From Halichondria panicea (Eukaryota; Porifera; Demospongiae; Suberitida; Halichondriidae): DNA of 64,000 bases. A program made the translations under genes and the position numbers. The stretch lies in assembly GCF_963675165.1 (NCBI RefSeq), contig NC_087389.1, positions 5,876,621 to 5,940,620 on the forward strand. Reading direction: 5' to 3'. The notes under the pieces are model-generated. The model was not told the DNA's origin. It ran no database searches and was given only the letters and a program-made list of their open reading frames with translations. Below are positions 6,318-47,197 of the stretch, piece after piece. Positions within the stretch are counted from its first letter, which is position 1. The number at the start of each line of letters is the position of its first letter.

Positions 6318-9300
6318 TTATTCTTGCACACTGGACCAATTTTTGCAATGCAATTTTTTGGAGGAATTCACACAAATAGCACAAATCAAGGAAATAAATT
6401 AAATTGACTAAAACAGTACAAGTATGACATGCACAATAATGAGTTAGGTTCTACTGCACATCACAGCTTCAGGTTTTCTGTGTATGAAATAATTGCATAA
6501 TGATACTGAAACGCGATGACAGCATGATTCACTTACCTAGCTGCTGACTGACAAATGTAAGTGGCCAATTCTTCCATTCTCATATCCAGTACAATGTCCA
6601 CTAGTGCTCGGTACGTGGCTGCACCTGGATTATGCTGTCTCCACACCTTTAGAGTATGAAACATTGCTGTTTGCATGTCATTCAGAAACAAAGCGTATTT
6701 AACATCTTTCTGTTCAGCAGGGCTCAGCCCCAACATAGCAGGGTAGGTCTCCACATTGTCAAAGTGATCTGCCAGGTCCCACATGTCTGTCTCTTCAATT
6801 TCAGTGTCAAGTTGAGAGTCGGTCACTTTTGTACGCTCCTTCAATTCCTCAATGGTCACAGTCCTCAGTCCACCAGCTCCTGGGAGAAGGAAAGGAGTGT
6901 GGTTAATGTGCATACAATATTTATTATGTTTTACATATAGACATGAAATTCCTATGGCTGTACAGAACACTACCTTGTATTGGGTACTAATTTTAGCGAA
7001 TTTGTAATTAACGCTAAATTAAGTCCCCACTAATAATAAACGCATTTAGTTCTTTTTTTTCAAACTCTTGCTTGTACATCTTTTGACAAATATTGTGCTA
7101 ATGAATTTGCTATAAATCTGCCAAAATGAGTACCCTAAAAACTGAAAACGTTCAAATTACTACTGTCTATAAATAAGGTATATAATTATATACAATGACT
7201 GCACATACCTGAGGGAATGGTGTGTGGATATGAAGTGAGGACATCTTGTGAGGTATCTCCTTCAGTGACATCAGCAGCTGTGTCTAATATTGAGATACAG
7301 TATTCAGCTGTATCTACACAACAACTACGTATATATTAATGACAACATGCAAAACAGCGTAAAACCATTACGTTGTAGTCAATAATGTTCCACATCATAA
7401 TAGAGGTACTTTATAATGATTGTACATACGCTGTATGTACTTACTAGAGTATTGCTGCTGATCACATTTTCTCTCAGTACAAGTACCTCCCGTAGCAGAC
7501 GATGGTTTTCCTAATTATGAGTAAAAATATCAATAAGTATAAGTATACTGAATTTTGAAGTGTTAATTGATAGAAGAAAAGCCCAATGCATGTGTCTCAC
7601 TGTCCAGTACCTAGTTACTACTGATACGTGGTGAAGTGAAAAAAATGCACAAACACTGAAAATATAGTTACCTGTGATGCTATCAGCCAAATTGATGAGA
7701 TCCACAGTGGGCCTTTTGAGAGCGTCTGACAGGAGACTCCATGTTACATGTTGTGTACTCAGGAGCTTGGCCAACATTTCACGCAAGGATGATACATTAT
7801 CTTCACAACACTTGATATTGATCTTGGTGAGAACAGGATAAGTTAGACCTAGAGCCAATCCCAGATCGAACCAGTGAGGGCTGGCACTTTCATGTAGTTT
7901 CTCGTAAACATGTTGTAGATCGTTGATTGTCAAAGCCTGTACAAAAACAACAATCATGCAACAGGGTTTCATTTGGTGGGGATTGCCTCCTCGGAAATAC
8001 ATTCTAGAGGAAACTCAATGGGAATACAATTGAGGGGTTCTGGTGAACAATATTCTTAACAGGGCAGATATAGTAATGAATTCCTGGGGTCACGAACCCT
8101 CTAGATATATACATATCATCAACACCCTAATATCATGCACGTGCACCATTTGCTCCCCTTGCCAAAATGTCAGGAGGATAAGTAGATACAAGATTTAGAG
8201 TACTGCCTACCTTGTGCACGTTCAGCAGGTGAGGACATTTCCCCGCGATTAGAATGATGTCACTCTCAGGGATTTCTTGATTGAGTTGTTGGTCCCTCAC
8301 TCCAGTCTTCTTACACACATCTTCCATTACTGTAACAGAGGACAATTTACCGGAAGCGAAGAAAGAAAAATATAACAAAGAAACAAGTAAAAATAATTAT
8401 TGGGCCAAAAGTAAAAGTATTCTTTATAAACAACAGAAAAAACTTAATTACAGCAACCATTGGAGATATTTTAGGACACAATAAACTGTTAAGTCTGAGT
8501 TGGTGCTACAATTACATCAACTACACAGTATCAACTACACAGGCACTGACTTATACACGAGGATTAACATGATCAGGCACAGGACAAATTAATGATCATA
8601 ACCTGTCGACCAAACGGCACTTTCTTACTGGTATGTTGATGTGGATCACTCGTTGTATTGACCACATGTTCCATTGCAGGAGACAATTTGTCTGAGGAGG
8701 GAAATGTTATAATACAAAAGTGATTACAAAACAAAGCTTACCAGAAATAATGTGCTGATCATGATCATGTACTTCCGTGCACACATCTTCCATTACAGAA
8801 TTACCTGAGGAAAAGCAGACACAGCAGTTACGCTCATGTGGTACGTTTGTCAATTAACATGCTCACTCAAACAAGGCTGTTGATCACTCATTCCAGATCC
8901 AGTGCTACTAACAACATTGGCCAGAGTCCCACATTGATTGACTGAAAACAACAAGAATTACTATAAATTGACATCATGCACATTGAACCCTGAACCCTCA
9001 TACATATACAGGTATATTATACACGTACGCTGTATGTACTTACTAGAGTATTGCTGCTGATCACTCTTTCTCTCAGTCTTCGTACAAGTACCTCCCGTAG
9101 CAGACGATGGTTTTCCTAATAGAAGAATTTGAGGAGAAACAAAATAATACTTATCCACCGGAAACTTTCTTACTGGTATATTGATCACTCATTCTACACA
9201 CAGGTTCCATTACAGGGGACGATGGACCTGAGGGGGATAATACAATGATACGAAAATACTTTGTTATACTAATGTAGTACACAAAATAATAAAAGCTGCA

Positions 9301-11801
9301 AATATTTACGTATAGTGCTACATAACTACCAGAGTATTGCAGCTGATGTCTCTTTCTTTCAGTGTTAACATCTGAGGAGCCTTCACCAGGGAAACAAAGA
9401 TAAACTTCTAAATAGTATATAGTTGCAATTTACCGGAAGGTAACAGATTTTCAGAATCAGTAATTTAGTAAGTCCTAAAGTGATGTATATGCCAATGCAT
9501 GTACTTACCAGATTGTGGCTGCTGATCACTCTTTCTCTCAGTACAAGTACCTCCCGCGTACGTAGCAGACAATGGTTTTCCTAATTATGAGTAAATAAAT
9601 TAACTTTTAATTATACAAAAAACTACTGTACTCACCAGAACCTTCGCTACTGTCCAGCCAGATTTTATGTTCATCACTGAGCTCTCCCCACACACGTGTC
9701 TGAAGGGAGCACTTCCAAAACTTACAGCCACTCCGTTCGATCACATCAGCAAGATGTAATTTGCCAGTGCTCTTCTTGCATGGGCAAAAGATGGCTGTCT
9801 TGGGTGTGTCGTTGTTGTAATGCAACACTGCACAGGACAATTTAATGCTGTGCAAAATTTCGTTTCGAATCATAGGGCATACTTCATTGCGAAGAGAAAC
9901 AGGGATGTCGATATACACTTCCATATATGAGAAGGAGTCGATCAGAGTCACGGTACACGGGAGATCGGAGATTTCATACTGGATACAATTTTTAGCAAAA
10001 ATGCTTGTTTCGCCAGAAGGGAGCAAAACTTTCCAGCCCACCCTCTTGATCATGTCCACAACTAGACAGCAAAAGACTCCAGAGCGAATACACCCACTAC
10101 GAAAGTAGACAGCAAGGGGCGCTATTGTGAACGACGAACGAATTTTGTCTAACTCAGCAGGTGGGATAGATGTGAGTAGAGATGGCATGAAGAACTCGGC
10201 TTGGTGGGTAGTGGCCTCCACTAGTGCAATGGGAGCAATCACGAGAAGCTCTTTCATGATCAACAGCATGTCTTCTGGAGAAAAGATACCTTCAACGTAA
10301 TGCTTCTTGAAAGGTCGTAGGAACTCTAAACTGACTATGCCTTTGTCTCGAAATCTCTTCCACTTGGCCTCAGTCCCTCTTGTGCTTAGAGTAGAGGATG
10401 ATTTGACTTCAGGAGTCCTCAGAGAGATGGCGTACTGTGAGAGCTCAGTGATCTTGTCTAGTGGAATCTGGGCATCCACAAACACTGTGTTGGGGAGAAT
10501 GGAGGGATAGTAGTGCGCTATACACACGTTGTCAAAGAAGACCAGAGCAGCTTCAAGATCTTGGAGCACGTAATGAAATCGAGTGGCTAATCGGAGACAT
10601 TCTTGCTTGCTCAGTACACCTCGCTCGAGAGTGGCAGATAAACTCTGGAGAAGTGAATCCAAGAAGGACCACCAGATGGGCATTTTGACTTGTAGCGGAA
10701 TAGAGCATTCAACAGCACTTCTAATCCTATCGGCAGTGGCCAGTGAATCGTCATCTCGGCTGATCGTGTTGAGACCAAAAATCAGATTGTTCAACGCAAG
10801 ATCGTTGTACACCAATAGCTTCTTGATATCGGGTGGCAGCATGTCGAGAATCTCTTGATTCCTCTTGATAAGAGTATCCAAGCTCTTGAGCTGATCTAAG
10901 AACGTGCCCACAAAGATCATCTTTGGCTTCTTGTCTTGTGAGGTATGGGACTCAATGGATCGAATGAGACTCTGAAGTGTCTCCTCGAGGGTCATGTGAG
11001 ATGCATGAGGACTACCAACAAGCTGCCCATCCTTGTAGTACTCGTCAGAAGGGAAACTGGAGAGTTCGTCAATCAAACGTAGGACTATCAACGCCACTGA
11101 AATGTGCTTGATGAAGAGAGGGCTGATGTCGTGGAATTGCGGCTGACCGCCGCAGTCGGTAACGTACACCCAGTTGGAATCAAACAGTTCTCCTTCTTGC
11201 TGGTCACTGCTCGACAGTTTGCGAGTTCTCTGTGTGGCTGGCTTCAGCTCTTCTGCCACACCACTCACTACACTCGCTATCACTTCATCGATGGCTTCGT
11301 CCAAAAATCTTGCAGAGCCAGAAAGTTCATCGGAATCGTTCGATGGGCTGGATTTGGAACCAGATTTTGTCTTGGTTGTGGTCATCCTCTTGGGAATCCT
11401 TAATGCCGTGATCATCTTTTTCAAGCTCTTGGCAATTCTTGATGCCGTGGATTGATCGGTGCTTCTTTCAACTAAACGATCGGTACTTTTTCCAACTAGG
11501 TGATCGGTGCTTTCTTTTGGTAGCTTGGCGATGATTTGAGCTAGTAGATTGAGCAGCTTTGACTGAGACATCTCTTCCCAGCCTCTTCCAGTTGTTTTGA
11601 ATTTTGCATTGGACACGGGGCGAATGCGTACTGGCTTTTCCATACAAGGAGTGCTGTCACGCTGTAGTGGAGGGGGCTTGTCAGTTAGCAGGTGCTTGAG
11701 GTTGGTCTTCCCTGTTCCCGCCGGTCCAAACACGAGCATGTTGACAATGTTGACCAAGACGTGTCCGTGCTTCATCGCCTCATCAAACAACCGCTTTGAT
11801 T
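6318..11801 (-). CDS. ROC-COR GTPase with C-terminal Death domains, 14 exons, 5' end not found
   Basis: Fourteen minus-strand exons join in one open frame: 11801-9636, 9580-9509, 9371-9330, 9227-9174, 9115-9044, 8941-8867, 8804-8742, 8691-8629, 8329-8211, 7936-7672, 7510-7445, 7283-7209, 6879-6537 and 6330-6318. All have GT-AG borders. The product is at least 1,160 residues: a ROC-like GTPase with COR-like region, a variable linker made of tiny exons, a half Death domain, a full Death domain, more linker, and a final Death domain ending SVQE-stop. ROCO proteins are GTP-regulated dimeric switches and Death domains assemble signalling platforms, so an innate-immune or cell-death sensor is inferred. 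The first exon starts in phase 1 after TTTAG, so upstream exons must exist. The tail is paralogous to that of the NACHT-LRR gene at 38.7-47.2 kb. Confidence 0.72.
6537..6879 (-). CDS. C-terminal Death-domain exon
   Basis: The exon starts GAGGLRTVTIEELKERTKV and continues DSQLDTEIEETDMWDLADHF, YPAMLGLSPAEQKDVK, TLKVWRQHNPGAATYRAL and EELATYICQ. The Trp in LKVWRQ and the ATYRAL motif are hallmarks of this Death-domain group. The exon leaves in phase 2 and joins a 13-base terminal coding piece (6330-6318) giving SVQE-stop. The paralog 39301-38959 is 343 bases, the same length. Confidence 0.75.
7209..7510 (-). CDS. Two further mini linker exons between the Death domains
   Basis: Exon 7510-7445 (66 bases) is another GKPSSATGGTCTERKCDQQQ cassette. 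Exon 7283-7209 (75 bases) reads DVTEGDTSQDVLTSYPHTIP. Both are phase 1-1. The second type recurs at 43788-43702, 41575-41502 and 39737-39642 in the paralogous gene. Confidence 0.65.
7672..7936 (-). CDS. Death-domain exon
   Basis: An 88-residue domain starts ALTINDLQHVYEKLHE. It keeps classic Death-fold features: HWFDLGLALGL (helices 1-2), VLTKINIKCC, LREMLAKLL, VTWSLLSDAL and VDLINLADSI (helices 5-6). It is bounded by AG at 7937 and GTAACT. The paralog 42225-41961 has the same length (265 bases) with a handful of substitutions, indicating constraint or recent duplication. Confidence 0.75.
8211..8329 (-). CDS. Half Death-domain exon
   Basis: The exon begins after CTGTTACAG and reads IMEDVCKKTGVRDQQL, then NQEIPESDIILIAGKCPHLL, and ends HK before GTAGGC. 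It matches the N-terminal half of sponge-type Death domains, as seen in the exon at 6879-6537 (VTDSQLDTEIEETDMWDLAD). The C-terminal half is missing; the next exon instead starts a complete Death domain. It enters in phase 1 and leaves in phase 0. The paralog is at 43163-43045. Confidence 0.65.
8629..9580 (-). CDS. Array of seven mini linker exons, all phase 1-1
   Basis: Exons of 72, 42, 54, 72, 75, 63 and 63 bases (9580-9509, 9371-9330, 9227-9174, 9115-9044, 8941-8867, 8804-8742, 8691-8629) each start and end in phase 1 and are multiples of three. Two related sequence types are present. One reads GKPSSATGGTCT then ERKSDQQQYS. The other reads SSPVMEPVCRMSDQYT, NSVMEDVCTEVHDHDQ or LSPAMEHVVNTTSD. 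The second type resembles the start of the half Death-domain exon (VMEDVCKKTGVRDQQL). The encoded linkers are polar and low in hydrophobic residues. Any subset could be skipped without changing frame. Confidence 0.7.
9636..11801 (-). CDS. ROC-COR head exon of the Death-domain gene
   Basis: A single 2,166-base exon opens with ESKRLFDEAMKHGH. The Walker A loop is GPAGTGKT. The switch II motif is DCGGQPQFHD about 190 residues later. A G4-like VGTFLD replaces the usual NKxD, and a COR-like region follows (WWSFLDSLLQSL, then FFDNVCIAHYYPSILP). Between Walker A and switch II lies a Ser/Lys-rich insert with a short internal repeat of the type STDxLV. The frame could extend upstream to an ATG at 11898, but that stretch is a TG-repeat translation (TYTHTHT), so the splice acceptor at 11802 is preferred. 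The exon ends in phase 1 at a GTGAGT donor, matching the linker exon that follows. Confidence 0.75.
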
Positions 11802-11944: not shown

Positions 11945-12537
11945 TTAAGCGCATGCTCAACTGCAGGTTTTTTGTTTGAATTGAAGCGCTTTTCTTAAGT
12001 AATTCTCCTTCTTGCTGATCACTGCTCGACAGTTGGTCAGTTTCCTGTGTGGCTGGCTTCAGCTCTTCTGCCATACCACTCACTACACTCGCTATCACTT
12101 CATCGATGGCTTTGTTCAACTTTCTTGAAAGTGCATCAGAATCGTTGTTTGACGGGCACGAATTTGAATCAAAAATACGCTCAACGGAATCAGAAATTGG
12201 CTCGGCTGTGGTCATCTTCTTCAAGCTCTCAGCAATCTTTGATGCTTTCTTTTGGTAGCTTTGCAATGATTTGAGCTAGTATAGCTTGCACAGCTTTGAT
12301 TGAGACATCTCTTCCCAGCCTCTTCCTTTGAATTTTGCGTTGGACACTGGTCGAATGCGTACTGGCTTTTCCATACAAGGAGTGCTGTCGCTGTAGTGGA
12401 GGGGGCTTGTCAGTTAGCAGGTGATTGAGGTTGGTCTTCCCTGTTTCCGCCGGTCCAAACACGAGCATGTTGACAATGTTGACCAAGAGGTGTCCGTGCT
12501 TCATCCCCTCATCAAACAACCGCTTCGATTCTAAACA
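11945..12537 (-). pseudogene. Truncated tandem copy of the ROC-COR exon start
   Basis: Directly upstream of the ROC-COR exon, the minus strand repeats its first ~500 bases from ESKRLFDEGMKHGH. The Walker A loop has changed to GPAETGKT. The copy is frameshifted twice (after PPPLQR and around KLPKES) and ends abruptly at SSDQQEGEL, before the DCGGQ motif. It retains the TTTAG acceptor at its start. It looks like a dead partial tandem duplication; the intact exon may be spliced past it. Confidence 0.7.
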
Positions 12538-14075: not shown

Positions 14076-14079
14076 GTTT

Positions 14080-15213: not shown

Positions 15214-15765
15214 CTTCCTTTCTCCGCCTCTCCTCTGGTCTTCCTCGTATCTCAGCAATCTTATTCTCACTGTTATGTATGAACCCCTCACGCCTTTGTA
15301 TCTCTGAGACACACTTCTTGATCTTCCCCTCCACCTCCTCCAGCTCTCCCTGCAGTTGTCTCCGGTCCTGGTCAGTGATGTCACCAGACAGTCTCTGTTG
15401 GAGGGCAGCTCTTCTCTGGGGGAGTAAAGAATATATATACGACTGAATGAACATTCCACCAAATAGAACATGCAGCTGATACAAATCACTACTGCACGTT
15501 ATAAGGTTAACAAATTGCGTGCAATCCACATAACAAAATATAAAGGTCAGCAACCACTAACCTATTCAATCAGTAAAAGTGGACTTATAAAACATACACA
15601 AAGGTAGACAAAAAGCAACCATTCATCATACAATGGACAGTACATGTACACACATTGTCGTTCTGCTAGACTACGTGTACCACTCTAACCACGAGAGTAG
15701 TAAGTGCAACTGTCAACACTCACCGTCTTTTGACTCTTGAGTTTACTCTCATTAATAGCATTCCT
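15214..15765 (-). CDS. Coiled-coil exons, unknown protein
   Basis: Exon 15765-15724 (42 bases, RNAINESKLKSQKT) and exon 15415-15214 (reading RRAALQQRLSGDITDQDR, then LEEVEGKIKKCVSEIQRR) both have AG and GT borders. The composition is a highly charged helix with heptad-like spacing, so a coiled-coil rod is likely. The exons are in the same orientation as the microexon-like cassettes upstream. No family could be assigned. Confidence 0.45.
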
Positions 15766-21810: not shown

Positions 21811-22200
21811 GAACAGCTAGTAGGACAATACGCACAATTAGCGAGTGCTACAACAATACACAAACAAACAAACTAACAACAACACATTGCTACCAATCAG
21901 CACACACTCACACTCATCAATACCATATAGCTATTTCAAAGGGATACAAAATGAATCTTTTGATCGTGAAAATGCATAATTCAAGTTATGAGCACTCAAA
22001 GTTAGCTATCAAAACGCAAAGCTTCTAATCAGAAAAATCACAAGCTACAAAGGAAGTCAGCCCTTTCTAGTAACCACGCTTCCTGTGTTAACTTACCATC
22101 GAGGTTAGTTGAGCACAACGACTACTTTAGATCATCATAGCCCTCCTCCTTATGTCTCCTGTGTGCAGGGACACTACATTAGTCACACCAACTACAACCC

Positions 22201-22298
22201 CAGAGGAGGATCGTCAGGGTCAAAAGGTCTAGTCTTAATCCTAAAACTGCTTCTGGGGACTTTCCACTCAGCTATTGACCCTGACAATCCTCCTCTGC
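22201..22298. repeat. Foldback: AGAGGAGGATCGTCAGGGTC arms
   Basis: AGAGGAGGATCGTCAGGGTC at the left is matched by GACCCTGACAATCCTCCTCT at the right, around a loop of about 55 bases. The paralog at about 57,095-57,190 keeps the structure. Confidence 0.6.
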
Positions 22299-22481
22299 TC
22301 CAACCGCATGTGCAAATTCAACAGTCTCTTGTACAACACTTAGTATAAGTCACTTAATTCAACACCAGTTTAACAACTTCCTTTCTCAAATTCAGGCGTT
22401 ATTTTAACAACTTTACACACACAGTCAGAGTCACATATTCAACACAACCGTTGTATTACTGGCTGTTGTAAATGAACTCAC

Positions 22482-23134
22482 AGCTTGAAGCACCATCTCT
22501 CAATATCCTCCTCATAATTCTCCAGCAGTCGATGGCACTGCATTGAAACACACACAGCTTTATACATACATTGCAGGCACTCGTGTATGTATGTATGTCA
22601 CTATATAACTCCCTAACAACCAATGAGGAGCATGGATACATAGTGACAGAGCTTACACACATTTTTATACATTGCAGGCACTCGTGTATGTACGTATGTC
22701 ACTATATAACTCCCTAGCAACCAATGAGGAGCATGGATACATAGTGACAGAGCTTACATCATAATCTGAATGTTTACAAACATCGTCCAGCATCTCGATC
22801 AATCGAACCTCACTGCAAGAAAATAAAATCAACTTTTTAAGAGTGTTAGTGCAATTAGATGGAGGCTACCTGTTAGCGTAGGAGCCGAGTTTCTCCTGCT
22901 CCTAATTCGTGTCCCCACCAGCAAAGTTTGACTTGGCCGTGTCGTCCATCCTCTGGGGGGAGGGGCAGCGTATGAATTACCCCATACACCTCAACACATT
23001 TTAATAGATGTTCACACTCACTTTGTTGAAGGCTTGGACAAAATCTTTGCATACTTTACATGATGGTTTGACAGCCAGAGAGTAGCTGCCAGGAGGAGGA
23101 CAATGAGTACCAAGGATCTGTCGAGTGTATTCAT
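22482..23134 (-). pseudogene. CRELD: CRELD-like 5' exons, copy 1 (frameshift and stop)
   Basis: Four minus-strand exons (23134-23022, 22952-22870, 22812-22758, 22537-22482) match the N-terminal region of CRELD: CKVCKDFVQAFNK, MDDTAKSNFAGGDTN, SEVRLIEMLDDVCKHSDYD and CHRLLENYEEDIERWCFK. CRELD proteins are secretory-pathway cysteine-rich EGF proteins linked to protein folding. A signal-peptide-like start (MNTLDRSLVLIVLLLA) begins at 23134, but one base is missing relative to the 57.9 kb copy, throwing the Cys-rich part out of frame. The conserved Trp after DTN is a TAG stop. Non-functional as read. Confidence 0.75.
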
Positions 23135-23533
23135 ACCCTTAAGCTGGCGTAGCTGTGATAGTCACTCAACTCAGTTTAGAATGTAGAAAATGTGAAGATT
23201 GGTACGGGTCGTTTCACCCACCTGAATATTATAGCCTCGATCCCAGGCCGCACTTCCTATGCATGGGGCCAGTGATGATGAAGGTACTCCAAACATGTGT
23301 TCAGTCTCTTGACTATAGAATCAATTGCAAGGCCAGGTCTTAGTGATTAATCGTGTGAGCGTTGCTATAGTGTTCATAATAATGATTGCGCATGCTCTTT
23401 TCACATTCCATCACAATAATTATAAGCAGACACATAAAACAGCATCAATAAAACAAAACGTTAAAGTAATTATTTCAGTTTTGTTCAGTTCTGCAATGAA
23501 TCTACAAATGTGTGTAGCAGTGTCTCCTCTTTG

Positions 23534-23946
23534 CTACACTCTCAATGCATGAGCCACTCCAGTTTGATTGCCTTCGTACTTTCTCTTTCGAGTAGCATCG
23601 CTTTTTTCAGCAGTAGTGAGTTCGAGTCTTCCAAGCATGCTGGGTGTCATCTCAGCTACACAGTAGATGTCACTGTTGGGGATTTCTTGATCGAGCTGCT
23701 GATCAGTCACTCCAGTCTTCCTGCACACATCTTCATTACAGAGGATGATTGCAATTTACATGAAGTTCAAAATCACTTTAAAGTCCTCCAAAAATCGTAA
23801 TTGACTATTTATTGAGCAATGTATATAGCGCTATGTACTTACTATGATCATACACGTACGCTGTATGTACTTACCAGAGTATTGCTGCTGATCACTCCTT
23901 CTCTCAGTCATTGTACAAGTTACCTCCCGTAAGCAGAGGATCGTTT
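23534..23946 (-). pseudogene. Degenerate Death-domain exon and linker cassette, copy 1
   Basis: A linker cassette at about 23946-23878 (GKRSSAYGR then stop) is frameshifted relative to GKPSSATGG at 9.1 kb. The following exon (about 23745-23534) reads KTGVTDQQLDQEIPNSDIY, MLGRLELTTAEK and YEGNQTGVAHALRV. It then hits TAG exactly where the family has Trp (ALRVW). The fragment is a dead relative of the two intact tails. Confidence 0.65.
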
Positions 23947-24029
23947 TCCTAATTATGGGTAAGCAAGTACGTACATGACATTGTAAGTACTTGTAATTGC
24001 TGTACAAGTACTTGTATAGTTTACTCATA

Positions 24030-25285: not shown

Positions 25286-25308
25286 TGTGAGCGTATTTCA
25301 ATATTATT

Positions 25309-25975: not shown

Positions 25976-26041
25976 GCATTTCTGGATGCTTGTAAGACTG
26001 GTAATGTGGGTGTGGTTCTGGAGCTCATAATTTCAACATAA
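25976..26041 (+). pseudogene. Ankyrin-repeat start, truncated
   Basis: After CTCCCAG the frame reads AFLDACKTGNVGVVLELI, the opening of an ankyrin repeat, then stops after IIST. In the paralogous region this 60-base exon piece is present twice (60,860 and 61,070), with about 210 bases between starts. Confidence 0.45.
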
Positions 26042-27990: not shown

Positions 27991-28009
27991 TTATGTTTAT
28001 CCAGCGAAA

Positions 28010-28860: not shown

Positions 28861-29039
28861 GAGAAATTGAAGATTCCATTTTATATCTCTCCACGATCCC
28901 GAGAAACAACCAGTCCAAGAGACAGCTAAATTTAAGCAACCAGTCTAAGCTCGGCAATAAAAAGCACCTATCGTATAACAGAGTACGTTACATCTATTCC
29001 AGTCAGTGTAATCAACTTCCCGTCAAACGATATTCCGCA

Positions 29040-36260: not shown

Positions 36261-36954
36261 GGGGGAGGGGGAAGGTTGATAATTCAAATTAAAAGTCGTA
36301 ATTTGAGTTGGTGAAATCCAAACATGCGCTCTCTTTATGTCCTACATGTATCACATGGTGTAATAAATCTACCACCTTAATCATCTTATGTTATATTTGT
36401 TAGAGCTACAAAGCTAATAACGAGGCTGTACCTGAATGAGATGTAGTCCTGGGTGGTTGAGGAAGGCGACGACTCTCTTACTGTCCTCCTTGGACACGCT
36501 ACTTGATAATCTGGACCTATAGAGGAGGATACAGGCACTGAGGCATAAATATAGAACCTTTTTGCAGTGCCTTACTGGGAAACCTATAGAACTACATTAC
36601 ATTAGCACAAATCATTAATTATTTTAATAGTACAATAATAGTATACAGTACGTACACTTGCAACAGAGATTTGCCGATCAAAACCACAATTACATTGTCA
36701 GCTATAAAGATTAAATAATTTCAGCCATTTCTACAAAAAAAGACAGAACCTAGTCTACCAAAAAGGGTAAGTTGGGTCGTTGCCCGTGAAACTTTGAACT
36801 GGGCGACGCCCCAACTTGTATGTACTTGAGAAGGAGTATAATGATTTCAAAATTTAGGGAAATTACTAACTGTTTTGTAAAAAAAGTCCCCAAGAGGGAA
36901 TCGAACCCATGCCTTATCTATCATCTAATCTACTAAGCCACCACCCTAACCTTC

Positions 36955-38654
36955 CAACAACTCCACCCCAGAGCTGATCTCCTCAGTGTTGATAAAGCTG
37001 AGGACCATTTCCAGTCCAACAAAACACGAGAGAATAGTGAAATCCTCGAGCTCTTTGAGAAGACAGGCATGTCTTCATTTCAGATCTGTACGATGTCTTG
37101 ATCGAACCCTCTTATCCTCACACTCAAACTTCACACACAGTCACCACCGCCCACACACTCTGAGAACTGCTCACCCACAGCAGCCAACAACAGCTCCTGC
37201 CATACCTTGGTCTGAGGGGGCGGGGGATTATGACATGATTATGATTGTGATTTCAAATGTAAAATACTTTTTTTAGTGCTTGTATCTAAGCACACCATTG
37301 GAAAATTAATTCTTAGCTACATGTATCAGGTTTCATACAGAGGGGGGGGCTGGGATTTCCCCCCCCCTTGAACTCTGAATGATGTCATAATAAAATGTAT
37401 ACTAGTAAAATGTCATGATTTGAAACACACGAAAAGCCCAAGTTGCACCTCAGATGATCATTTCGTAAAATCATTTCGTAAAATTTTACGATGATCATTT
37501 CGTAAAAAAAGGAACAACCTCCCTGAAATAAACGTTTCCCCCTCCCAGCTAAAAATCCTGTATGAAACCCTGGGCCTGTTGAATGGACAATATGAACACA
37601 AATTACGGGCTCTCAAAGATAGCTACCAAAACGACTGAAATTTGGAAAACAGTGTAAGGCTATCATAACATAGCCGTTGCTTATCACAGAACTTGTATAC
37701 TATAATCATGGCGCCTCACTGTGTGCATCTTTCTGACTTTGAATGACCACAATCCACCATGAGCATTATCAGAGTCCTCCCAAATAGGTCTCCTATTCTC
37801 ATTCCTCATAAGATGGTAGCTCTCTCTCTCGCCCAACTGGTCTATGGGACGAATATTGTTGACCACACCCCAAAATGCCTGTTGGTGGGTAGGGGGCGAT
37901 GTATTGATATTATAATGAACGTGATGGACATCACCTTGATGGTCTTGACTGTACACAAAGGTTTGAGATTCTCAAAGAAATCTTTGGCAGTTGCTCCTCT
38001 TCGTGTACTGTATGAATAATGAGAACATTCACAATATAATTATAATAACACGCACACACCATATTATAGTACAGGGGCACAGCACAAAATACACTATAGA
38101 GTACAACACTAGTAGTAGATACAGCATGGGACAGAGGGCCAGTTGCCTGTATGACTATTGCATAAAACACGAGGTTTCTCATGCTACATCTGTTTTATAT
38201 CACGATGACCCCGTACCAAATCATGCCTCGAGGCTATACGTAATATAACAGGGAAGGGAGTGTATGACTTGACTACACCTTGTTACCTGGACACAGCACA
38301 ACGATACTTTACAAGGAGGGGGACAGCACAAACACAGAACTGGCATAACTAGCTACACACACACAATGGCCACCACCAGATATATAACTACACCATTTTG
38401 TCCCCCTCTCAACTATCCAGTTTCTACACACACACACACGTACGTACACACACTCACGCATCATGCCAAAACGTCCACGGTGAGTTAAGGAGATAGTTAT
38501 CAGGGTCCCCCCCACTAGGCTCATTCACAGCCACGGCATCTTCCCTTGCCTTCCTTGATAGCCTGGGAGAGCTGGTCCGCATCTCTTCACCACCTTGCCC
38601 TGTTCTTAGAGTGTCTTCTGCCACTGTACCGTCAGCCATCTTGTAGGGAAACAA
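36955..38654 (-). pseudogene. EIF4E3: eIF4E3-like gene, copy 2, with stops in exon 4
   Basis: Exons 38654-38458, 37998-37935, 37878-37720 and from 37211 downward match the 4.5-6.1 kb gene. Exon 1 keeps the longer start MFPYKMADGTVAEDTLR. Exon 4 has two TGA codons, at 37133-37131 (after DCV) and at 37082-37080 (the Trp of VQIWNED). Its 3' end is removed by a deletion that fuses the exon to the SINE near 36,950. Exons 1-3 are intact, so a truncated product is conceivable, but cap-binding would be compromised. Confidence 0.8.
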
Positions 38655-38748
38655 GTGGGAGAAACTAGCAAAACACAGATGTAGTTTATTAGACTAACGA
38701 CCTTTTCCTAGCTTAACAAACAGTTTGTTCCTTGGACGACCTTTACCA

Positions 38749-41700
38749 TTATTCTTGCACACTAGGCCAAGCAATGGGCAATTTTTTAATGAATTCACAC
38801 AAATAGCACAAATCAAGGAAATAAATTGACTAAAACAGTACAAGTATGACATGCACAATAATGAGTTAGGTTCTATTGCACACCACAGGTTCAGGTTTTC
38901 TGTGTGTGAAATAATTGCATAATTATACTGAAACACGATGACAGCATGATTCACTTACCTAGCTGCTGACTGACAAATGTAAGTGGCCAATTTTTCCATT
39001 CTCATATCCAGTACGATGTCCACTAGTGCTCGGTACGTGGCTGCACCTGGATTATGCTGTCTCCACACCTTTAGAGTATGAAACATTGCTGTTTGCATGT
39101 CATTGAGAAACAAAGCATATTTAACATCTTTCTGTTCAGCAGGGCTCAGTCCCAGCATAGCAGGGTAGGTCTCCACATTGTCAAAGTGATCTGCCAGGTC
39201 CAACATGTCTGTCTCTTCAATTTCAGTATCAAGTTGAGAGTCGGTCACTTTTGTACGCTCCTTCAATTCCTCAATGGTCACAGTCCTCGGTCCACCAGCT
39301 CCTGGGAGAAGGAAAGGGGTGTGGTTAATGGGTGGAGTCTCTGATACAATATTTATTATGTTTTACATAATTATAGATATGAAATTCCTATAGCTGTACA
39401 GAACACTACCTTGTAACGGGTACTAATTTTAGCAAATTTGTAATTAACGCTAAATTAAGTCCCCACTAATAATAAACGCATTTAGTTCTTTTTTTCAAAC
39501 TCTTGCGTGTACATCTTTTGACAAATATTATGCTAATGAATTTGCTATAAATCTGCCAAAATGAGTACCCTAAAAACTGAAAACGTTTAAATTACTACTG
39601 TCTATAAATAAGATAATTATATATACAATGTATGCACATACCTGAGGGAATGGTGTGTGGATATGAAGTGAGGACATCTTGTGAGGTATCTCCTTCAGTG
39701 ACATCAGATGGTACAGCATCAGTCAGTACAGTAGAGGCTGTGTGTATTCATTAATAATATAACTGTCATTGTGAAAATACACTATACATCCTGCGTGCAA
39801 GTATATAGATTGCCGACAAAGATAGCAACACTCACCTGTTGTATGTTGGTCTGTTCTGTGTGTAGACTGCAGGGCTGTAGTACAAGTAGCCTCGTCACTA
39901 GCTGTGGGGTGGTGCTCTACTGGTGATGCCTGAGAGAAGCTCTGTTCATTGATGAGAGTGTCTGGATCAGTGACATCACTAGGAGTGTCCACTGTATCCA
40001 CAACCTCATCTATTGGGTGGTGTTCTACTGGTTCGTTAGTGGAATACCATGAATCAATGCTGTCATCATCATCATCATCATCGGAAGAGATCTACAATAA
40101 GATCACGATAAGTGTTAAAGAATGATATGACACAACACTCACTTGAGTATGCTCCTTCAATTCCTCAATGGTCACAGTCCTCGGTCCACCAGCTCCTGGG
40201 AGAAGGAAAGGGGTGTGGTTAATGGGGCGGAATCTCCGACAGTGAACAGACATTTAATATCCTAACTCTCTAAAAGTACACCCAGATATACAAATTCAAT
40301 TTGAATTAACAGAAGCATACTTTACATCATTATAATAATTATTGTATACTGTATAGCGCGAAATTTTCAAGGGGCTTAACCCTTTCCCCGTTGAAGCCGT
40401 CATATGACGGCCACTCTAGTGGTCATTTTCAAAAATTCGTTGTGCCCACTGTGTTGGAGCTATGCACACACTGTAGGTAGCAGCACATGCGCATTGAGCT
40501 GCTCTTTCACATGGTATCTTTAATATGCTGCCTTGAGGTACGCTTTGTACAGTAATGTCGAAAGAAAAGTGACCGTTTGATAATGTTTCAAGATCTTCGT
40601 AGTACAATCTCAGTGAGGTTCTAAAGTAGCTAGACAGTGAGAATATCGATGCTTATGGCCTTGTTGAGTGAGAGGACTGTGACTGGGATCATAGCTAGAT
40701 AAAAAGCTACCTCAAGCTAGAAAATATAGAGCCTGAAGGCCTGAGGAAGAAGCTCTTGCGATGGAACAACTTCTTGGATCTGGTAAGTCTAGAGTAGCAT
40801 CTGTAGTCTTGATAGCTTCAGTATAACTGTATTTAGGCTAGTTAGTACAGCAGTGGACATCATGAGCCACCATTGAACTTGTAAACCTGTGTGTAGGTGA
40901 AGAAAACATTTCCCGGGAAAAGGGCGTCTGCTGATACGACCTCGCAGAGAACTTTCTGCAGATCCTGATTGAACCATGTCACTGTGAGAACATTGAGAAC
41001 ACTTATTTAGTGTCTTTAGCCACTCTGTGCCTTCATACAATATTATTTGTGTACATAGTTGTGAATGTTTGTAAACAATTGCTAATTAGTGGGGGTGGTC
41101 AGTTGCTAGGTAACGAAGATGGTGTTAAGATACCTCTGGGGTCTGCGCTACCTGTAGGAAATAGTTACAAGTCATTTCAATGTATGGTTCATGACATACA
41201 AATTTTTAAAGAAAATTGTTATTTATTCTGTATTTTCTTGTTTTAATTAAAACGGGGAAAGGGTTAATTTTCGTTGATTTCGTGGGTTAGCAATCCTACA
41301 CGAAAATGAAGTCCACGAAAATTGTTTTTTAATTAGAATTATCTGCTATAACATGCAAAGATTTAAAGGCGTGGATTCCGGTAAGCAGCTATTTCCACGA
41401 ACATTGTGCAACGAAATGCTTTAAGATCTATAGGCTATTCCACGAAATATAAGTGCCTCAAAAATTTTGCGCTATATATACGGTACGTAATTCACACCTA
41501 CCTGAGGGATGGTGTGTGGATATGAAGTGAGGACATCTTGTGAGGTATCTCCTTCAGTGACATCAGCAGCTGTGTCTAATAATGAGATACAGTATTCAGT
41601 ATCTACGTTACAACTATACGTATATATTAATGACAACATGCATAACAGCGTGAAACCATCACGTTGTAGTCAATAATGTTCCACATAATAATAGAGCTAC

Positions 41701-44700
41701 ATATAATAATTTTACATACACTGTTCTGTACTTACCAGAGTATTGCTGCTGATCACTCTTTCTCTCAGTCTTCGTACAAGTACCTCCCGTAGCAGACGAT
41801 GGTTTTCCTAAAAATATAATTATGTATACTGAATTTTGAAGTGTTAATTGATAGAATTAAAAAAAGCCCAATGCATGTGTCTCACCGTCCAGTATCTAGT
41901 TACTACTGATACATGTGGTGAAGTGAAAAAAATGCACAAACACTGAAAATAGTTATATACCTGTGATGCTATCAGCCAATATGGTGAGCTTCACTGTGGG
42001 ATTATTGAGACCATCTGACAGGAGACTCCATGTTACATGTTGTGTACTCAGGAGCTTGGCCAACATTTCACGCAAGCATGACACATTATCTTCACAACAC
42101 TTGATATTGATGTTTGTGAGAATAGGATGAGTTAGACCTAGAGCCAATCCCAGATTGAACCAGTGAGGGCTGGCACTTTCATGTAGTTTCTCGTAAACAT
42201 GTTGTAGATCGTTGATTGTCAAAGCCTGTACAATAAACAGAGTTTCATTAATTTTGGTGAGGGTTGTCCCCTCGGAAATACCTTCTAGAGGAAACTCAAT
42301 GGGAATACAATTGAGGGGTTCTGTTGAACAATAGTTATGCCTCGGTGCGCATGCGCAAGAGAGGTATATACGGTAGTGTGTTTGTGTGTCTGTGTGTGTA
42401 GACTATTTCAGCTGCTCAAGGATCAATGAAGTGCAAGTAAGAGTTTCTATAGGCTTCTAGTCATGATTTCTTGGCTTGCAATGGTTGGATTTTGCAAAAT
42501 AAAGCTTCGTTCTCGAGTTATGCCTAGTTTTGTTTACTTGGAATGCCATTGCAGCCTGTTCAGAAGAGTCCGTAGCAAAAATTTTTCACCGAGTGTTGCT
42601 ACTCTACTTAGTAGTTAGCTCTGCACTAGAACGCTAGCTATATTGGTAGCTGCAAGAGTGAGAAGAGAGCTGCAAGGCTCTGCGACGTACTTGCCATCAG
42701 ATTTTAACTTTTGGCATCGATCGTTTTTAACAACAATCATGGTCGATCATTACCCACTATTTCCCGCATACACAACATTTTCATCATGATAAATTAATTA
42801 TAATCAATGTGTGTATAAAAGCTAGCTATAATTATGTTATGTAGCTTTGGCACCTCCACCGAGGCATCAACAACTGCGGTGCTTTCATCTTAACAGGGCA
42901 GATATAGTAATGAATTCCTGGGGTCACGAACCCTCTAGATATATACATATCATCAACACCCTAATATCATGCACGTGCACCATTTGCTCCCCTTGCCAAA
43001 ATGTCAGGAGGATAAGTAGATACAAGATTTAGAGTACTGCCTACCTTGTGCACGTTCAGCAGGTGAGGAAATTTCTCTGCGATTAGAACAATGTCACTCT
43101 CAGGGATTTCTTGATTGAGTTGTTGGTCCCTCACTCCAGTCTTCTTACACACATCTTCCATTACTGTAACAGAGGACAATTCACCTCAAGAAAAGAAAAA
43201 AGAAACAAGTAAAAAATATTGGGCCAAAAGTACAAGTATTATTCTTTATAAGCGACATAAAAAACTTACTCACAACAACCATTGGAGATATTTTAGGACA
43301 CAATAAACTGTTAAGTCTGAGTTGGTGCTACAATTACATCAACTACACAGTATCAACTACACAGGCACTGAATTATACACGGGGATTAACATGATCAGGC
43401 ACAGGACAAATTAATGATCATAACCTGTCGACCAAATGTGCACTTTATTACTGGTATGTTGATGTTGATCGCTCGTTGCATTGACCACATGTTCCATTGC
43501 AGGAGACAATTTGTCTGAGGAGGGAAATTTTATAATACAAAAGTCGTTACAAGTATATAATTATAGCTAGCTCTCCAAAGTATGCAGATCGAACCTCCGA
43601 CAGTGAACTTTTTAATTCTAACATACACCAAACAGGCTCTATAACTATGTTTATGATATACATGCATGCACTGTATAATCACGTAGATAATCCACACATA
43701 CGTGAGTGTGGATATGAAGTGAGGACATCTTGTGAGGTATCTCCTTCAGTGACATCAGATGGTACGGCATCAATCAGTACAGTAGAGGCTGTGTGTAAAC
43801 ATAAATAATTATGCCTACTGGCAGATGCTTTATGGAGCATGATATTATTTCCAGTACATGCATGAGTTGGTATATCGATCAAGATGTGGTAGCAATATCA
43901 CCCAAGTGGGTAATACATCACCATGTAACCACCGCCCTTGAACTTGCATCCCTTTGGAACCGGCTTTTGTGATTACCGAATGTAGTTTTACTAATAAGCA
44001 GGGAACATGGATAACTACGGCGAAATGATGTCATGCCCTGGCTCGTGCGTGAGTAATAACCTAAATCTATACGTATACAAAACACTGACAAAGATAGCAA
44101 TGCTCACCTGTTGTATGTTGGTCTGTTCCGTGTGTAGACTGCGCACGCAGGGCTGTAGTACAAGTAGCCTCGTCACTAGCTGTGGGGTGGTGCTCTACTG
44201 GTGATGCTTGAGAGAAGCTCTGTTCATTGATGAGAGTGTCTGGATCAGTGATATCACTAGGAGTGTCCACTGTATCCACAACCTCATAAACTATTCGGTT
44301 GTATTCCGCTGGTTTGTTAGCGGTTGACCATGAAAGGATGCTTTCAGAAACAGCTGAAGATATCTATAATGGATAAGATCACAGTAAAAAGTTAAAAATA
44401 ATGATGTATTGCAACACTCACCGTTTGAGCCTCATCAATCATCTTCGACAGTAGCGTATCCCAAAGAGAAGGGAAAGTACGATTCATCTAGGAAATTATG
44501 AGTATAGTTTTTAAGCATAAATCAAGAATTTACTGACCTCTTCATTTTGTGGAGGTAAACATGTTCTCTCCCACTCATTCAGCATTGCAGAATTCCTTGA
44601 TTCCCGTATGATCTGTGTATTAAGCTAGATAAATGCAACATAATCATGAACTGTAGAGTGAGTACCTTCAACTGTTCATTGCACATGAGCATCAACTCCT

Positions 44701-47197
44701 CGCTCACAGGATTATGACTGACATCAACACCGTCCTCCAGGTAACTGACATGGAACCCCTCCAGTCTAGGAAACAGCTCAGGTAGACACTCAGTGAGAGC
44801 TATCAATCCCTCATCATCAATGGAGTTGTTGTTGAGATACAACCTTTTTAAATTCTTACATATCACATTAGCGGACTTGAGATGGTGGATAAGCATTATG
44901 ATGTCAGCAGAGGTGAGAGAACAACCCAAGCAGTAAATATATTTAAGATATGGAAATGCTTGAAGAAACTTTGCCAGTAAGAGAGTTCCAGCAGTTCCAC
45001 TGAAATTGGAATCAAACAAGTAAATTGTTGTTAAACTGTTTGGGTTGATATTCAGCATCTCACAGATGACTGTGTATTGAGACTCCGAGTGAAATGAAGT
45101 GGTGAGATGGGTAGCTGATAATTCAATGTCAGTCAATCCTAACGAAATATTCTTAACAACTGAACATAATCCAGGTAAACCAAGATTATTATTAGAGAGG
45201 TATAAGTATTCCAGTTTAGCACAGTGAGAGGCAATCGACTGTAAGAGGGTGGTCAGCAGAGCTCCATTGACGTCAGCATCGTCAGTGAGGGTTTTGGTTA
45301 GCTCCAGTTTCGTCAGGTTGATAAGAGCACCAGACTGTACAGCTGTATCTAATAACTGTATGCCGGACACTCCGAGAGGGTTGTGAGATAAGTTCAGCCG
45401 TGTGAGGCTCGTACAAGATGTGTGCATGAATGAAGACATGACGTTAGTGAAGTTGTTATGCTCCAACAAGAGTACACGTAAAGCTGTAAAAGCAGCTGAG
45501 GCTCTCCTGAATAGATCAGCAACACCTTTGTCAGACAACTTAGTCTGCTCGAGGGATAATTGTCCGACTTGCAGTTTACCATTCGCATTGGAAAGTATGT
45601 CAGTTAGTTCCTTCAACAGTTTATCCTCGATTGCACAATGGGATATTATGATAACCATATCGTCACAATTTACAGCATGACGAAGAACATAAAACCCAGC
45701 TACATAGTCAAAAGACTTCGTAGTTGTCCTGAAATTATCGAGTAATAAATTTGTTCCATACAAATTACAAACTTTTGTGCAGAATCCAGAGTCTGAAGCT
45801 TCGAAAGCAGCATGCCATAAAACCAACTTATTAAACTTTTCAGCCAACACAAATTGATCCGTCAAACCATGATCCAAACTGATCACCTTATCGCTATGAC
45901 TACCATTGTACTTACTAGCAAGACCAAACATAAATCTCCACACCATGTCAAACCGGTCACTGTCAGCATTAGTCTCAACAACTTTCAGTTTCTCCTCATT
46001 GGGTAGAGTAGCAAGATGGAGGGCAGCCAAGAACTCCTGGATGGTCAGGTGAGCAAAGTGAAAAGACAGGCCATGACCAACAGGTAGAAGTGATCGTGCA
46101 GACTGCAACAGACCAAAGCACTGCAACTTGTCACCAACTTCAGGTAAGCGAGAGGACAATTCAGCTTCTGAGAAAACCAGCTGATCTAATAATAAACACT
46201 CGTAGGCAAACTCACACATCAACCAAAACGTGTTTTGTATATCATTCGGAATCTCGTCGAATCTATTTAGGCTAATCGGACAATCGGAGAATTTCTTTTT
46301 AACATTGCGAAGGATAATGCTAAGAACAATTTGAGTGTACAGCTCAGTTAGCGTACGAGGAAGCTCTTGGTCTAAAGTGTGCCACAAGTTACAAACAATG
46401 GCACAATTGAGGGGCACAGAACACACACTCTGAATGACTGGGTTGTTCTCAAGCTGCTCGATAAGAGAAGAAGCTTTCTCTGGGAATTGCTCAAACTCTG
46501 ATTCTATGTACTGCTTGATATTCTCCTCATTGAAACCAACTACCTCAACCAAACGGTTTACAGAAGGAAGGTCATGAAGAGGAGCTGAAGCAGAAGGTCG
46601 TGAGGTGAGGAGAACAGAAGCAAAAGGAAGAACATCACCAAAGAGAAGGTCATATAGAAATGAGGTTTCTAATTGATTGTCTTCACTAAGCTCGTCCCAG
46701 CCATCAGCTATGATGAGGACACTTTTTCCTTCTCTTTCTTCCAACTCTTCTACAACAGATTGGCGAATCCTCTCATTGGCATGAAGAAGTTTGAACAGCT
46801 CAGCGAGACTTGTGGCAGAGGACACTCGATTCTCTCTCAGTGGAAGCAACAGAACACAGTTGAATTGTGTCAGGATCTTGCCCTCTGCCCACCCTTCAGC
46901 AAGCATGGTACACAGTGTGGTTTTACCAATCCCAGCATTGCCTTCAACGATGAGCTTCTTGACTGGTTTCTTGCCTTCTTCGACTTTGAATAGGTTGCCA
47001 TGGAGAATTGGAGTACGCTTGACCTTATCATCAGGTGCACCATGTTGTGGCAAGCCGGCTCTAAATCCTTCTTCTTTTTCAGCCTCCACTAACTGCAAGT
47101 TGACGAGCTTGTCTCCTCTAACTGGTGGCCATTGCTTTTGACGATTCAAGAGTCTTTCTATGTATTTCTGGCGAATGCTAGTAATGAATTTATCCAT
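38749..47197 (-). CDS. NACHT-LRR protein with C-terminal Death domains, multi-exon
   Basis: Exons run 47197-44666, 44612-44538, 44487-44422, 44363-44108, 43788-43702, 43514-43452, 43163-43045, 42225-41961, 41807-41736, 41575-41502, 40195-40143, 40091-39836, 39737-39642, 39301-38959 and 38761-38749. All have GT-AG borders, and phases agree except at 41575-41502. That exon is 74 bases, one short of its 75-base paralog, so splicing straight into 40195 would shift frame. Skipping from 41807-41736 to 39737-39642 would restore it. NLR proteins are cytosolic sensors whose NACHT module oligomerises on nucleotide exchange. Here Death domains lie at the C-terminus rather than in the usual N-terminal position. 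That the whole span is one transcript is inference. Confidence 0.6.
38959..40195 (-). CDS. Duplicated linker and terminal Death-domain exons of the NACHT-LRR gene
   Basis: Exon 40195-40143 (53 bases) is a truncated start of the terminal Death-domain exon (GAGGPRTVTIEELKEHTQ) cut by a new GTGAGT donor. Exon 40091-39836 begins ISSDDDDDDDSID, where a TCA microsatellite encodes the Asp run. Exon 39737-39642 is the TSQDVLTSYPHT cassette. Exon 39301-38959 is the complete terminal Death domain (TLKVWRQHNPGAATYRAL). The product ends SVQE-stop via 38761-38749. Confidence 0.65.
40349..41483. mobile_element. MITE of the CGCTATAC family, split by a nested element
   Basis: The left end is CTGTATAGCGCGAAATTTT and the right end is AAAATTTTGCGCTATATATACGG, each next to TA. 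The interior (TTAATTTTCGTTGATTTCG) is interrupted at a TTAA by the piggyBac-like element 40380-41263. Confidence 0.7.
40380..41263. mobile_element. Non-autonomous piggyBac-like element with TTAA target duplication
   Basis: The 884-base element starts CCCTTTCCCCGTT and ends AACGGGGAAAGGG, an exact 13-base inverted repeat. TTAA lies on both sides (40376-40379, 41264-41267). A subterminal palindrome GCCGTCATATGACGGC-like motif follows the left end. No transposase ORF is present. TTAA plus CCCTTT ends are the signature of piggyBac. Confidence 0.85.
41961..43163 (-). CDS. Half Death-domain and Death-domain exons of the NACHT-LRR gene
   Basis: Exon 43163-43045 (119 bases) and exon 42225-41961 (265 bases) equal their counterparts 8329-8211 and 7936-7672 in length and phase. 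Substitutions are few (for example WFNLGLALGLTHPIL against WFDLGLALGLTYPVL). The intron between them is enlarged by a 560-base insertion absent from the other gene. Confidence 0.7.
42331..42889. mobile_element. 560-base insertion with ATGCCTCGGTG / CACCGAGGCAT ends
   Basis: The intron of the 7.7-8.3 kb paralog reads GAACAATATTCTTAACAGGG. Here about 560 bases are inserted between GAACAATA and CTTAACAGGG. Inverted pieces ATGCCTCGGTG (left) and CACCGAGGCAT (near the right end) bound it. A related right end (ACCGAGGCATCAGCAACCG) occurs near 32,430. The superfamily is unclear. Confidence 0.65.
43452..44612 (-). CDS. Linker exons of the NACHT-LRR gene
   Basis: Five exons follow the LRR head: 75 bases (IIRESRNSAMLNEWE), 66 bases (MNRTFPSLWDTLLSKM), 256 bases (VVDTVDTPSDITDPDTLINE onward), 87 bases (VPSDVTEGDTSQDVLTSYPH) and 63 bases (DKLSPAMEHVVNATSDQHQH). 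The first two are phase 0; from the third exon on, every junction is phase 1. The 256- and 87-base types recur at 40091-39836 and 39737-39642, so the linker set has been duplicated within the gene. Confidence 0.6.
44666..47197 (-). CDS. NACHT-LRR head exon
   Basis: An 844-codon exon starting MDKFITSIRQKYIERL, with WPPVRGDKLVNLQL before the nucleotide-binding site. Walker A is GNAGIGKTT (residues 86-94), Walker B is LIIADGWDEL (161-170), and the sensor motif is LLTSRPSA (196-203). The winged-helix/HD2 region contains FHFAHLTIQEFLAALHLA. From about residue 540, ribonuclease-inhibitor-type leucine-rich repeats follow (LEYLYLSNNNLG, LKRLYLNNNSIDDEGL). Only 85 residues precede Walker A and no CARD, Death or Pyrin domain is visible there. 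I chose the ATG at 47197 because no acceptor lies just upstream. The exon ends in phase 0 at GTACTC. Confidence 0.85.

Follow-up and report, generated by a model that had tools for sequence, protein, structure and literature searches.

ROC-COR and NACHT-LRR genes of the sponge Halichondria panicea on paralogous Death-domain tails

DAPK1-type ROCO proteins consist of a kinase, ankyrin repeats, ROC, COR and a Death domain in this order. Constant Death-like units with variable partners are known from the sponge Amphimedon, where a TRADD-N expansion comprises 357 proteins (PMC8195603), and a survey of sponge NOD-like receptors (NLRs), which includes Halichondria panicea, classes these proteins by their N-terminal domain and finds NLRX to be the most expanded class (PMC12909245). 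Genes encoding NACHT and leucine-rich repeats (LRRs) are among the constitutively expressed receptors in a transcriptome study of H. panicea (PMC8242945), and the ROCO genes of brown algae have diversified by exon shuffling and alternative splicing (PMC11378527). The present analysis concerns a window of 64 kb (C13:5876621-5940620) from the genome of H. panicea (breadcrumb sponge, a demosponge), which contains two minus-strand genes, termed the ROC gene and the NACHT gene, with a ROC-COR head in the former, a NACHT-LRR head in the latter and the same series of Death-domain exons behind both (Table 1). The tail modules are named MID, the Death-like exon of 265 nucleotides (nt), TERM, the Death exon of 343 nt, and H3, a second half-Death exon.

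A common tail behind two unrelated heads

The exon tables of the two genes agree with the original prediction of one tail with identical exon lengths and phases: each has an exon of 119 nt in phase 1-0, one of 265 nt in phase 0-1 and one of 343 nt in phase 1-2, all with AG/GT borders. The tail DNA, introns included, is 91.5% identical between window positions 4522-7274 and 36950-39707, 87.9% between 7202-8052 and 41495-42333, and 93.1% between 8054-8729 and 42888-43552. This likeness is far beyond chance, and the duplicated block extends past the tails into the downstream neighbouring stretch, where a neighbouring-gene start resembling eIF4E by eye (NSPWTFWHD) is duplicated with them (~38457-38641 and 6040-6220, minus strand). 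The heads do not align (best blastp E 2.7), in keeping with the predicted lack of similarity between them. The predicted terminal SVQE-stop is present in both genes, at 6330 and 38761, but the RefSeq models P0122 and P0154 end in "...SAARKPEPVVCNRT" (KPEPVVCNRT) instead, through the exon at 38899-38866 or 6477-6444.

In the NACHT gene, the region 44582-47209 matches Pfam NACHT (3.8e-25; 89.1 bits, cut-off 26.7) followed by LRR_6 (1.8e-8; 34.2 bits, cut-off 23.4), the order of a bona fide NLR. An N-terminal CARD or Death domain, by which NLRC and NLRD are recognised, is not found by Pfam in this region, and the RefSeq model P0001, whose start methionine is that of exon 1 of this gene, begins with MDKF directly before NACHT. 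The gene is thus filed with NACHT-LRR (NLRX-like) genes and not with NLRC or NLRD, because its Death-like exons are C-terminal and no N-terminal effector was found.

The head of the ROC gene shows the GTPase motifs GPAGTGKT, DCGGQPQF and VGTFLD by eye, with no Pfam Roc match and no confident model. Its COR part is recognised through the paralogue P0126, for which the four best Foldseek hits are the Roco COR/RocCOR structures 3dpt and 3dpu (E 1.8e-4 to 3.8e-3), while hhalign aligns the ROC head profile at a probability of 100 with a class having Pfam COR-A matches that lie below the Pfam cut-off, MID being in both sets and giving part of the score. Neither a kinase nor ankyrin repeats were found by Pfam in the ROC head exon or in the RefSeq paralogues P0121, P0123 and P0133, so that a DAPK1-like architecture is not indicated. 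A sequence search of the PDB with set A3 (21 proteins) gave no hit at E<=0.1. The original prediction had placed this gene at 6.3-11.8 kb; a gene is there, but it is probably longer, spanning about 15.45-6.44 kb, because the charged, coiled-coil-like start stretch of several RefSeq paralogues (P0121, P0123, P0126 and P0133) has a counterpart further upstream, in the probable first coding exon.

The reading frame of the ROC gene (1,252 residues) is stop-free across all 15 exons. All nine of its linker exons (51-75 nt) have phase 1-1, as does the 119+265 unit when taken together, so that skipping, repeating or exchanging these cassettes keeps the frame. The frame of the NACHT gene is open for 1,438 residues plus stop over 14 exons once the linker exon 41575-41502 (minus strand), which is one base off phase, is omitted; four of its linkers are 1-1, the two exons after the head are 0-0, the copies of linker E start in phase 0, and a pair of short exons ends in phase 0.

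The model of TERM shows a six-helix Death fold (pLDDT, the predicted local distance difference test, 94.2 for the ROC-gene copy), and each of its 25 best structure rows is a Death domain; as judged from this predicted fold, TERM is a Death domain. MID itself is a weak candidate for a divergent Death-like exon: the copy in P0121 scores 22.0 bits against PF00531 (cut-off 22.6), and a copy on C14, 49% identical, scores 32.1 bits. No relation between TERM and MID was found by hhalign, and the two modules are therefore not recent duplicates of each other. PDB sequence searches with the TERM and MID profiles gave unconvincing or repeat-driven matches only. In protein searches limited by protein length and exact words, all 34 MID matches and all 15 TERM matches listed are from H. 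panicea. TRADD-N has no Pfam match in P0121, P0123, P0133, P0147, P0151, P0152 and P0154 (E<=0.05) or in the 21 proteins of A3 (E<=0.01).

In proteins of the first ROC-COR class (ROC1) with MID and H3, the 119-nt exon corresponds to about positions 4-46 of the TERM profile and H3 to its later part, with MID between the two. The matches of the 119-nt exon are weak (12-18 bits), the unit has no confident model, and an automatic count finds cleanly separate halves in 3 of 40 proteins, as the second match usually runs back into MID. Two decayed exons of the window (23489-23734 and 58351-58640) contain both Death halves side by side without MID, as expected if MID had been inserted into a Death domain. 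One ROC protein, P0121, carries four tandem copies of the 119-nt plus MID unit.

Head-tail combinations and their probable exchange

A genome-wide census was made from rows picked by identity, one per locus (38 of 150 TERM, 65 of 150 MID, 42 of 107 NACHT, 48 of 102 ROC, 31 of 141 kinase, 52 of 150 H3 and 13 of 54 LDK), joined by position with gaps of at most 9 kb; all counts are lower bounds. ROC1 heads have a tail in at least 41 of 41 cases, of which 38 include MID (31 MID-H3, one of them with an extra MID, and 7 MID-TERM) and 3 have the H3 half only. For the second ROC-COR class (ROC2), about 45% identical to ROC1, a tail follows at least 5 of 7 heads (1 MID-H3, 2 MID-TERM, 2 TERM) and none was found in 2. 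NACHT heads are followed by a tail in at least 32 of 42 cases, namely 17 TERM, 13 LDK and 2 with MID, and none was found in 10. LDK is a different two-exon Death-like tail, present in at least 12 NACHT genes on C13 at 4.06-4.99 Mb; a thirteenth case, on C7, is doubtful (8.0 kb gap, 63%). One of the two NACHT-MID genes is that of the window, with MID-TERM, and the other has MID-H3 with a TERM piece 8 kb further on.

The search for other heads on the same tail, which the original prediction had proposed, yielded kinase, ankyrin, TIR, COR and immunoglobulin (Ig) heads, some of them linked by position alone. These are a kinase exon before MID at all 8 MID loci on C1 (at least), CARD-like plus TIR exons (L074) and ankyrin exons (L076) before MID, and, before TERM, a locus of a third ROC-COR class (L077) and one that bears Ig (L078). 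At one of the C1 loci (L073) the exon before the kinase is Death-like by eye, with no Pfam match. A kinase-TERM pair on C4 (KIN-TERM) was rejected as a mis-join of the census, since a COR/Ig stretch lies between (L077). The head lies no more than 3.8 kb from the first tail exon in all classes other than NACHT-LDK (8.0 kb) and this mis-joined pair.

Several combinations are joined within single RefSeq models. NACHT-LRR is joined to TERM in P0003, P0008, P0027 and P0033, ROC-COR to MID plus further tail in P0121-P0133 (full sequences P0121, P0122, P0123, P0126, P0128 and P0133), and the second ROC class to TERM in P0154. P0147 (C13) comprises a kinase, ankyrin repeats, TIR, a ROC-like GTPase region, an Ig-like stretch and MID in 1,946 residues, its MID being probably the copy at ~4.03 Mb; P0151 is an ankyrin protein with a CARD-like start and MID, and P0152 an ankyrin-Ig-COR protein with MID. 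The NACHT gene of the window is represented by P0001, in which NACHT-LRR, linkers, the 119-nt exon and MID stand in one model. RefSeq clusters with as many as 19 member sequences, and isoform numbers reaching X17, suggest heavy alternative splicing of the linkers. Internal stops are absent from 36 of 38 TERM rows and 64 of 65 MID rows used (frame breaks not counted), and the pooled pairwise ratio of non-synonymous to synonymous substitution rates (dN/dS) is 0.36 and 0.45 for TERM (8 and 14 rows) and 0.59 for MID (16 rows), where rows of other lengths were left out (8 of 30 TERM and 16 of 32 MID) and pairs are non-independent. These values of 0.36-0.59, indicating purifying selection overall, argue that the tails are used.

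The NACHT gene of the window is a mosaic at the DNA level, with a junction within 43552-44084. Above it, 44084-47399 is 93.1% identical over 3.3 kb to the NACHT-TERM gene L071, in which no MID was found and whose TERM region is just 77% like that of the window gene; below it, the ROC1 gene L072 is matched, with its MID and TERM exons, by stretches of 37101-43552 at 87-95% identity. The gene thus looks like a recent fusion of the head of one sensor with the tail of another. The mosaic may have more than two pieces, as the exon 43788-43702 (minus strand) in the junction gap resembles L071 at 74% but the linker that precedes TERM in ROC genes at 95%. The second NACHT-MID gene (C13:5619288) has a NACHT-type linker E followed by ROC-type linkers, with its junction at 5617283-5617415, and its MID falls in a different clade from that of the window in the MID tree (32 loci; support 100/99). 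The different clades and junctions imply two or more gains of MID by NACHT heads. Linker E is found next to NACHT heads and also ahead of TERM in ROC genes, and its homology may have been the substrate of unequal exchange.

In the tail phylogeny proposed earlier, the TERM tree (30 loci) mixes the head classes: its best version has 7 or more changes of head for NACHT, ROC1 and ROC2, and its well-supported branches force 3 head changes for each class. TERM is identical (339/339 bases) between L024 (ROC2) and L025 and L026 (ROC1); the L010 copy (ROC1) differs from that of L011 (ROC2) at 1 of 342 positions and from that of the window NACHT gene at 3 of 342. Capture of the tail by a transposon was rejected, as the shared blocks vary in their ends and run into the downstream neighbour, which segmental recombination fits better; this rejection does not extend to the distant copies on C1, C12 and C2, where the block ends lie near the exons.

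Taken together, a large modular family, in which heads are joined by linker exons to shared C-terminal Death modules and re-paired by recombination, is considered probable, its basis in the sequence being the modules and their phases, the open frames, the fused gene models, the pairings of heads with tails across the genome and the mosaic gene. The heads (NACHT-LRR, two ROC-COR classes, kinase and others) would plug through small, mostly phase 1-1 linkers into the Death modules, and in tandem clusters the repeated linker exons and introns may be where re-pairing occurs, through unequal exchange, conversion or segmental duplication; breaks that fall between phase 1-1 cassettes keep the frame. 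By analogy with known NLR, ROCO and Death-domain proteins, the heads may be sensors of microbial or danger signals, nucleotide-driven or built on repeats, and may oligomerise, after which the tails may recruit a common set of Death-domain adaptors, such that any head would lead to the same output. The earlier proposal that sensors were swapped onto a common tail gains support from the fused models, the other heads, the mixed tree and the mosaic, and repeated recombination or conversion among the tandem genes is as good an account as a discrete swap.

Several results weigh against such a family. The fusion of heads and tails is known here from RefSeq models, which are predictions, and the claim that head and Death exons lie in one transcript stands in part: the models fuse them, but the P0001 isoform of the window NACHT gene uses the off-phase exon 41575-41502 and leaves the frame before TERM, thus reaching MID and having no in-frame TERM. 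MID is split into two frames at six loci, including 4 of the 8 kinase loci. The head labels are clustered in the TERM tree, with change counts as low in 22 of 500 shuffles for NACHT and 48 of 500 for ROC1, and exchange is therefore not free. As to the modules themselves, the window's own TERM exon has no PF00531 match in Pfam, 2 of 22 MID members match PF00531 (best E 0.043), the hhalign comparison with eight strong PF00531 exons is weak (TERM 12.5%, MID 2.5%), and the COR matches of P0126 come from the sole confident part of a poor model (pLDDT 37.6 overall). Finally, conversion of tails after older fusions would yield some of the same patterns.

This last point leads to the first of the rival explanations, namely that the fusions are old and single and that gene conversion keeps the tandem tails alike, with no recent head swap. 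Most TERM copies used are on C13, TERM exons of genes with different head classes are identical or almost so and the tails share long DNA tracts, all of which concerted evolution would produce; however, the window and L071 heads are 93% identical over 3.3 kb, yet MID was found in one only and TERM is 77% alike, the two NACHT-MID junctions differ, the shared block does not stop with the tail but continues into the neighbour downstream, and conversion alone does not easily add a MID. Concerted evolution without exchange of heads is thus regarded as unlikely. Rather improbable is that most of the chimeras are decaying by-products of recombination, few of which are used: the off-phase linker exon of the NACHT gene, the frame-broken MID at six loci, the broken ROC piece at 12 kb and the decayed Death exons at 23.5 and 58.4 kb are what decay would leave behind, but nearly all TERM and MID rows are stop-free and purifying selection prevails overall. 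That the Death exons form genes of their own next to those of the heads, the fused models being artefacts of prediction, is very improbable, for although the joins are predicted, a gene finder can over-join in tandem clusters and the kinase, L074 TIR, L076 ankyrin and L078 Ig links rest on position, many loci are fused in RefSeq models with matching phases, order and spacing recur, and frames are open across 15 exons in the ROC gene and 14 in the NACHT gene. An assembly chimera, with two loci or haplotypes wrongly put together at the NACHT-MID junction, is the least credible explanation, since, for all the repetitiveness of the tandem region and the use of a single assembly, the junction stretch 43560-44086 has no other full-length copy, an open frame with correct phases crosses it, and a second, different NACHT-MID junction exists.

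The modular family may also be read more boldly, as a set of receptors combined at the level of exons, in which a few symmetric (phase 1-1) Death cassettes would serve as a universal plug that recombination goes on shifting among NACHT, ROC-COR, kinase and TIR heads to yield new receptors leading to one hub. Many effector-less NLRX genes of this sponge would then be ordinary signalling receptors arranged back to front, their C-terminal Death tail escaping domain searches, and MID, as a full Death domain, would be nested between the halves of another (the 119-nt exon and H3). This extended version is put forward tentatively, its chances being somewhat short of even.

Features of the window

The coordinates of the two genes and their parts are collected in Table 1. 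Elsewhere in the window, a 7-kb segment is present twice (22111-29050 and 57004-63996; 89-94% identical), each copy with one of the decayed contiguous Death exons plus linker remnants on the minus strand, and other repeated pieces lie at 1.5-4.9, 35-37 and 49-54 kb. Pieces of a retroelement integrase are found at 2-340 and 565-912 on the minus strand (rve_3, 2.8e-6; Integrase_H2C2, 1.9e-18), a HIRAN domain (1.8e-7) in the open frame 50131-50613 on the plus strand, and minisatellite arrays with units of 67 and 71 bases at 27526-27983 and 62465-62871.

Table 1. Parts of the NACHT gene and the ROC gene in the 64-kb window.
Feature	Positions	Strand	Basis
NACHT gene exon 1, sensor head: ATG, NACHT (~46954-46490), HD2-like stretch, LRRs	44666..47197	-	Pfam; ATG and donor
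NACHT gene exons 2-4 (75, 66, 256 nt); exon 4 is linker cassette E	44108..44612	-	exon table
Junction-bearing stretch: NACHT-type DNA above, ROC-MID-TERM-type below	43552..44084	-	DNA comparison
NACHT gene 119-nt exon, first half of Death domain	43045..43163	-	~positions 4-46 of TERM profile, 12-18 bits
NACHT gene MID Death-like exon, 265 nt	41961..42225	-	88% to ROC-gene copy
NACHT gene tail linker exons	39642..41807	-	exon table
TERM-start fragment within these linkers	40195-40143	-	
Linker E2 within these linkers	40091-39836	-	
Linker S2 within these linkers	39737-39642	-	
NACHT gene TERM Death exon, 343 nt	38959..39301	-	97% to ROC-gene copy
NACHT gene last coding exon, KPEPVVCNRT-stop	38866..38899	-	same end in RefSeq P0122, P0154
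ROC gene probable first coding exon, coiled-coil-like; start codon chosen by the analyst	15214..15454	-	similar start in RefSeq paralogues
Broken partial duplicate of ROC GTPase start	11997..12534	-	DNA comparison
ROC gene head exon: ROC-type GTPase and COR	9636..11801	-	exon table; structure/profile matches of paralogue
ROC gene seven linker cassettes k1-k7, 51-75 nt, all phase 1-1	8629..9580	-	exon table
ROC gene 119-nt exon	8211..8329	-	exon table
ROC gene MID Death-like exon, 265 nt	7672..7936	-	exon table
ROC gene linker cassettes k8 (7510-7445) and k9 (7283-7209), phase 1-1	7209..7510	-	exon table
ROC gene TERM Death exon, 343 nt	6537..6879	-	model pLDDT 94.2
ROC gene last coding exon	6444..6477	-	exon table

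Relation to known receptor systems

If heads and tails are re-paired as proposed, sensor swapping would have been caught almost as it happened, at a junction that can be dated and in an animal that lacks adaptive immunity, and the assembly of immune receptor architectures would become testable in one genome. C-terminal tails would also offer a possible explanation for NACHT-LRR genes that seem effector-less, and the prediction follows that the NLRs, ROCO GTPases and kinases of one sponge converge on the same Death-domain adaptors.

The H. panicea genes resemble the Amphimedon TRADD-N set in being a lineage-specific expansion of a sponge with a constant Death-like unit, whose partners there include kinase, ankyrin, LRR and SH3. 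However, the Amphimedon unit is N-terminal with TRADD-N, while that of H. panicea is C-terminal with no TRADD-N match and has heads including NACHT-LRR and ROC-COR; no chimera at the DNA level is described for the Amphimedon set in the available part of that paper (PMC8195603). Like sponge NLRX, which are NACHT-LRR proteins without an N-terminal effector, the NACHT-LRR heads of H. panicea are in some cases clustered. That survey sorted NLRs by their N-terminal domain (PMC12909245), while many of the NACHT-LRR genes here end in a C-terminal Death tail, which Pfam frequently overlooks. Death-fold domains with many partners, Death-NACHT included, are likewise found in the immune domain shuffling of amphioxus, where the connector domain of NLRs is N-terminal and the part of the report at hand describes no exon-cassette mechanism (PMC2575513). 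Brown algae shuffle LRR sensor exons, whereas H. panicea would exchange sensors on a constant signalling tail (PMC11378527).

With DAPK1 the ROC gene shares the order of ROC-COR followed by a C-terminal Death domain, and P0147 combines kinase, ankyrin, TIR, ROC-like, Ig and MID; unlike DAPK1, the ROC gene of the window matches neither kinase nor ankyrin, and it shares its tail with NACHT genes. In the literature searched, which covered papers open without subscription and few preprints, neither a dissected chimera nor a C-terminal Death tail common to NACHT, ROC-COR and kinase heads was found. Constant Death units with variable partners and the shuffling of domains or exons are thus already known, and what H. 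panicea adds to them is the shared C-terminal tail and the dissected chimera.

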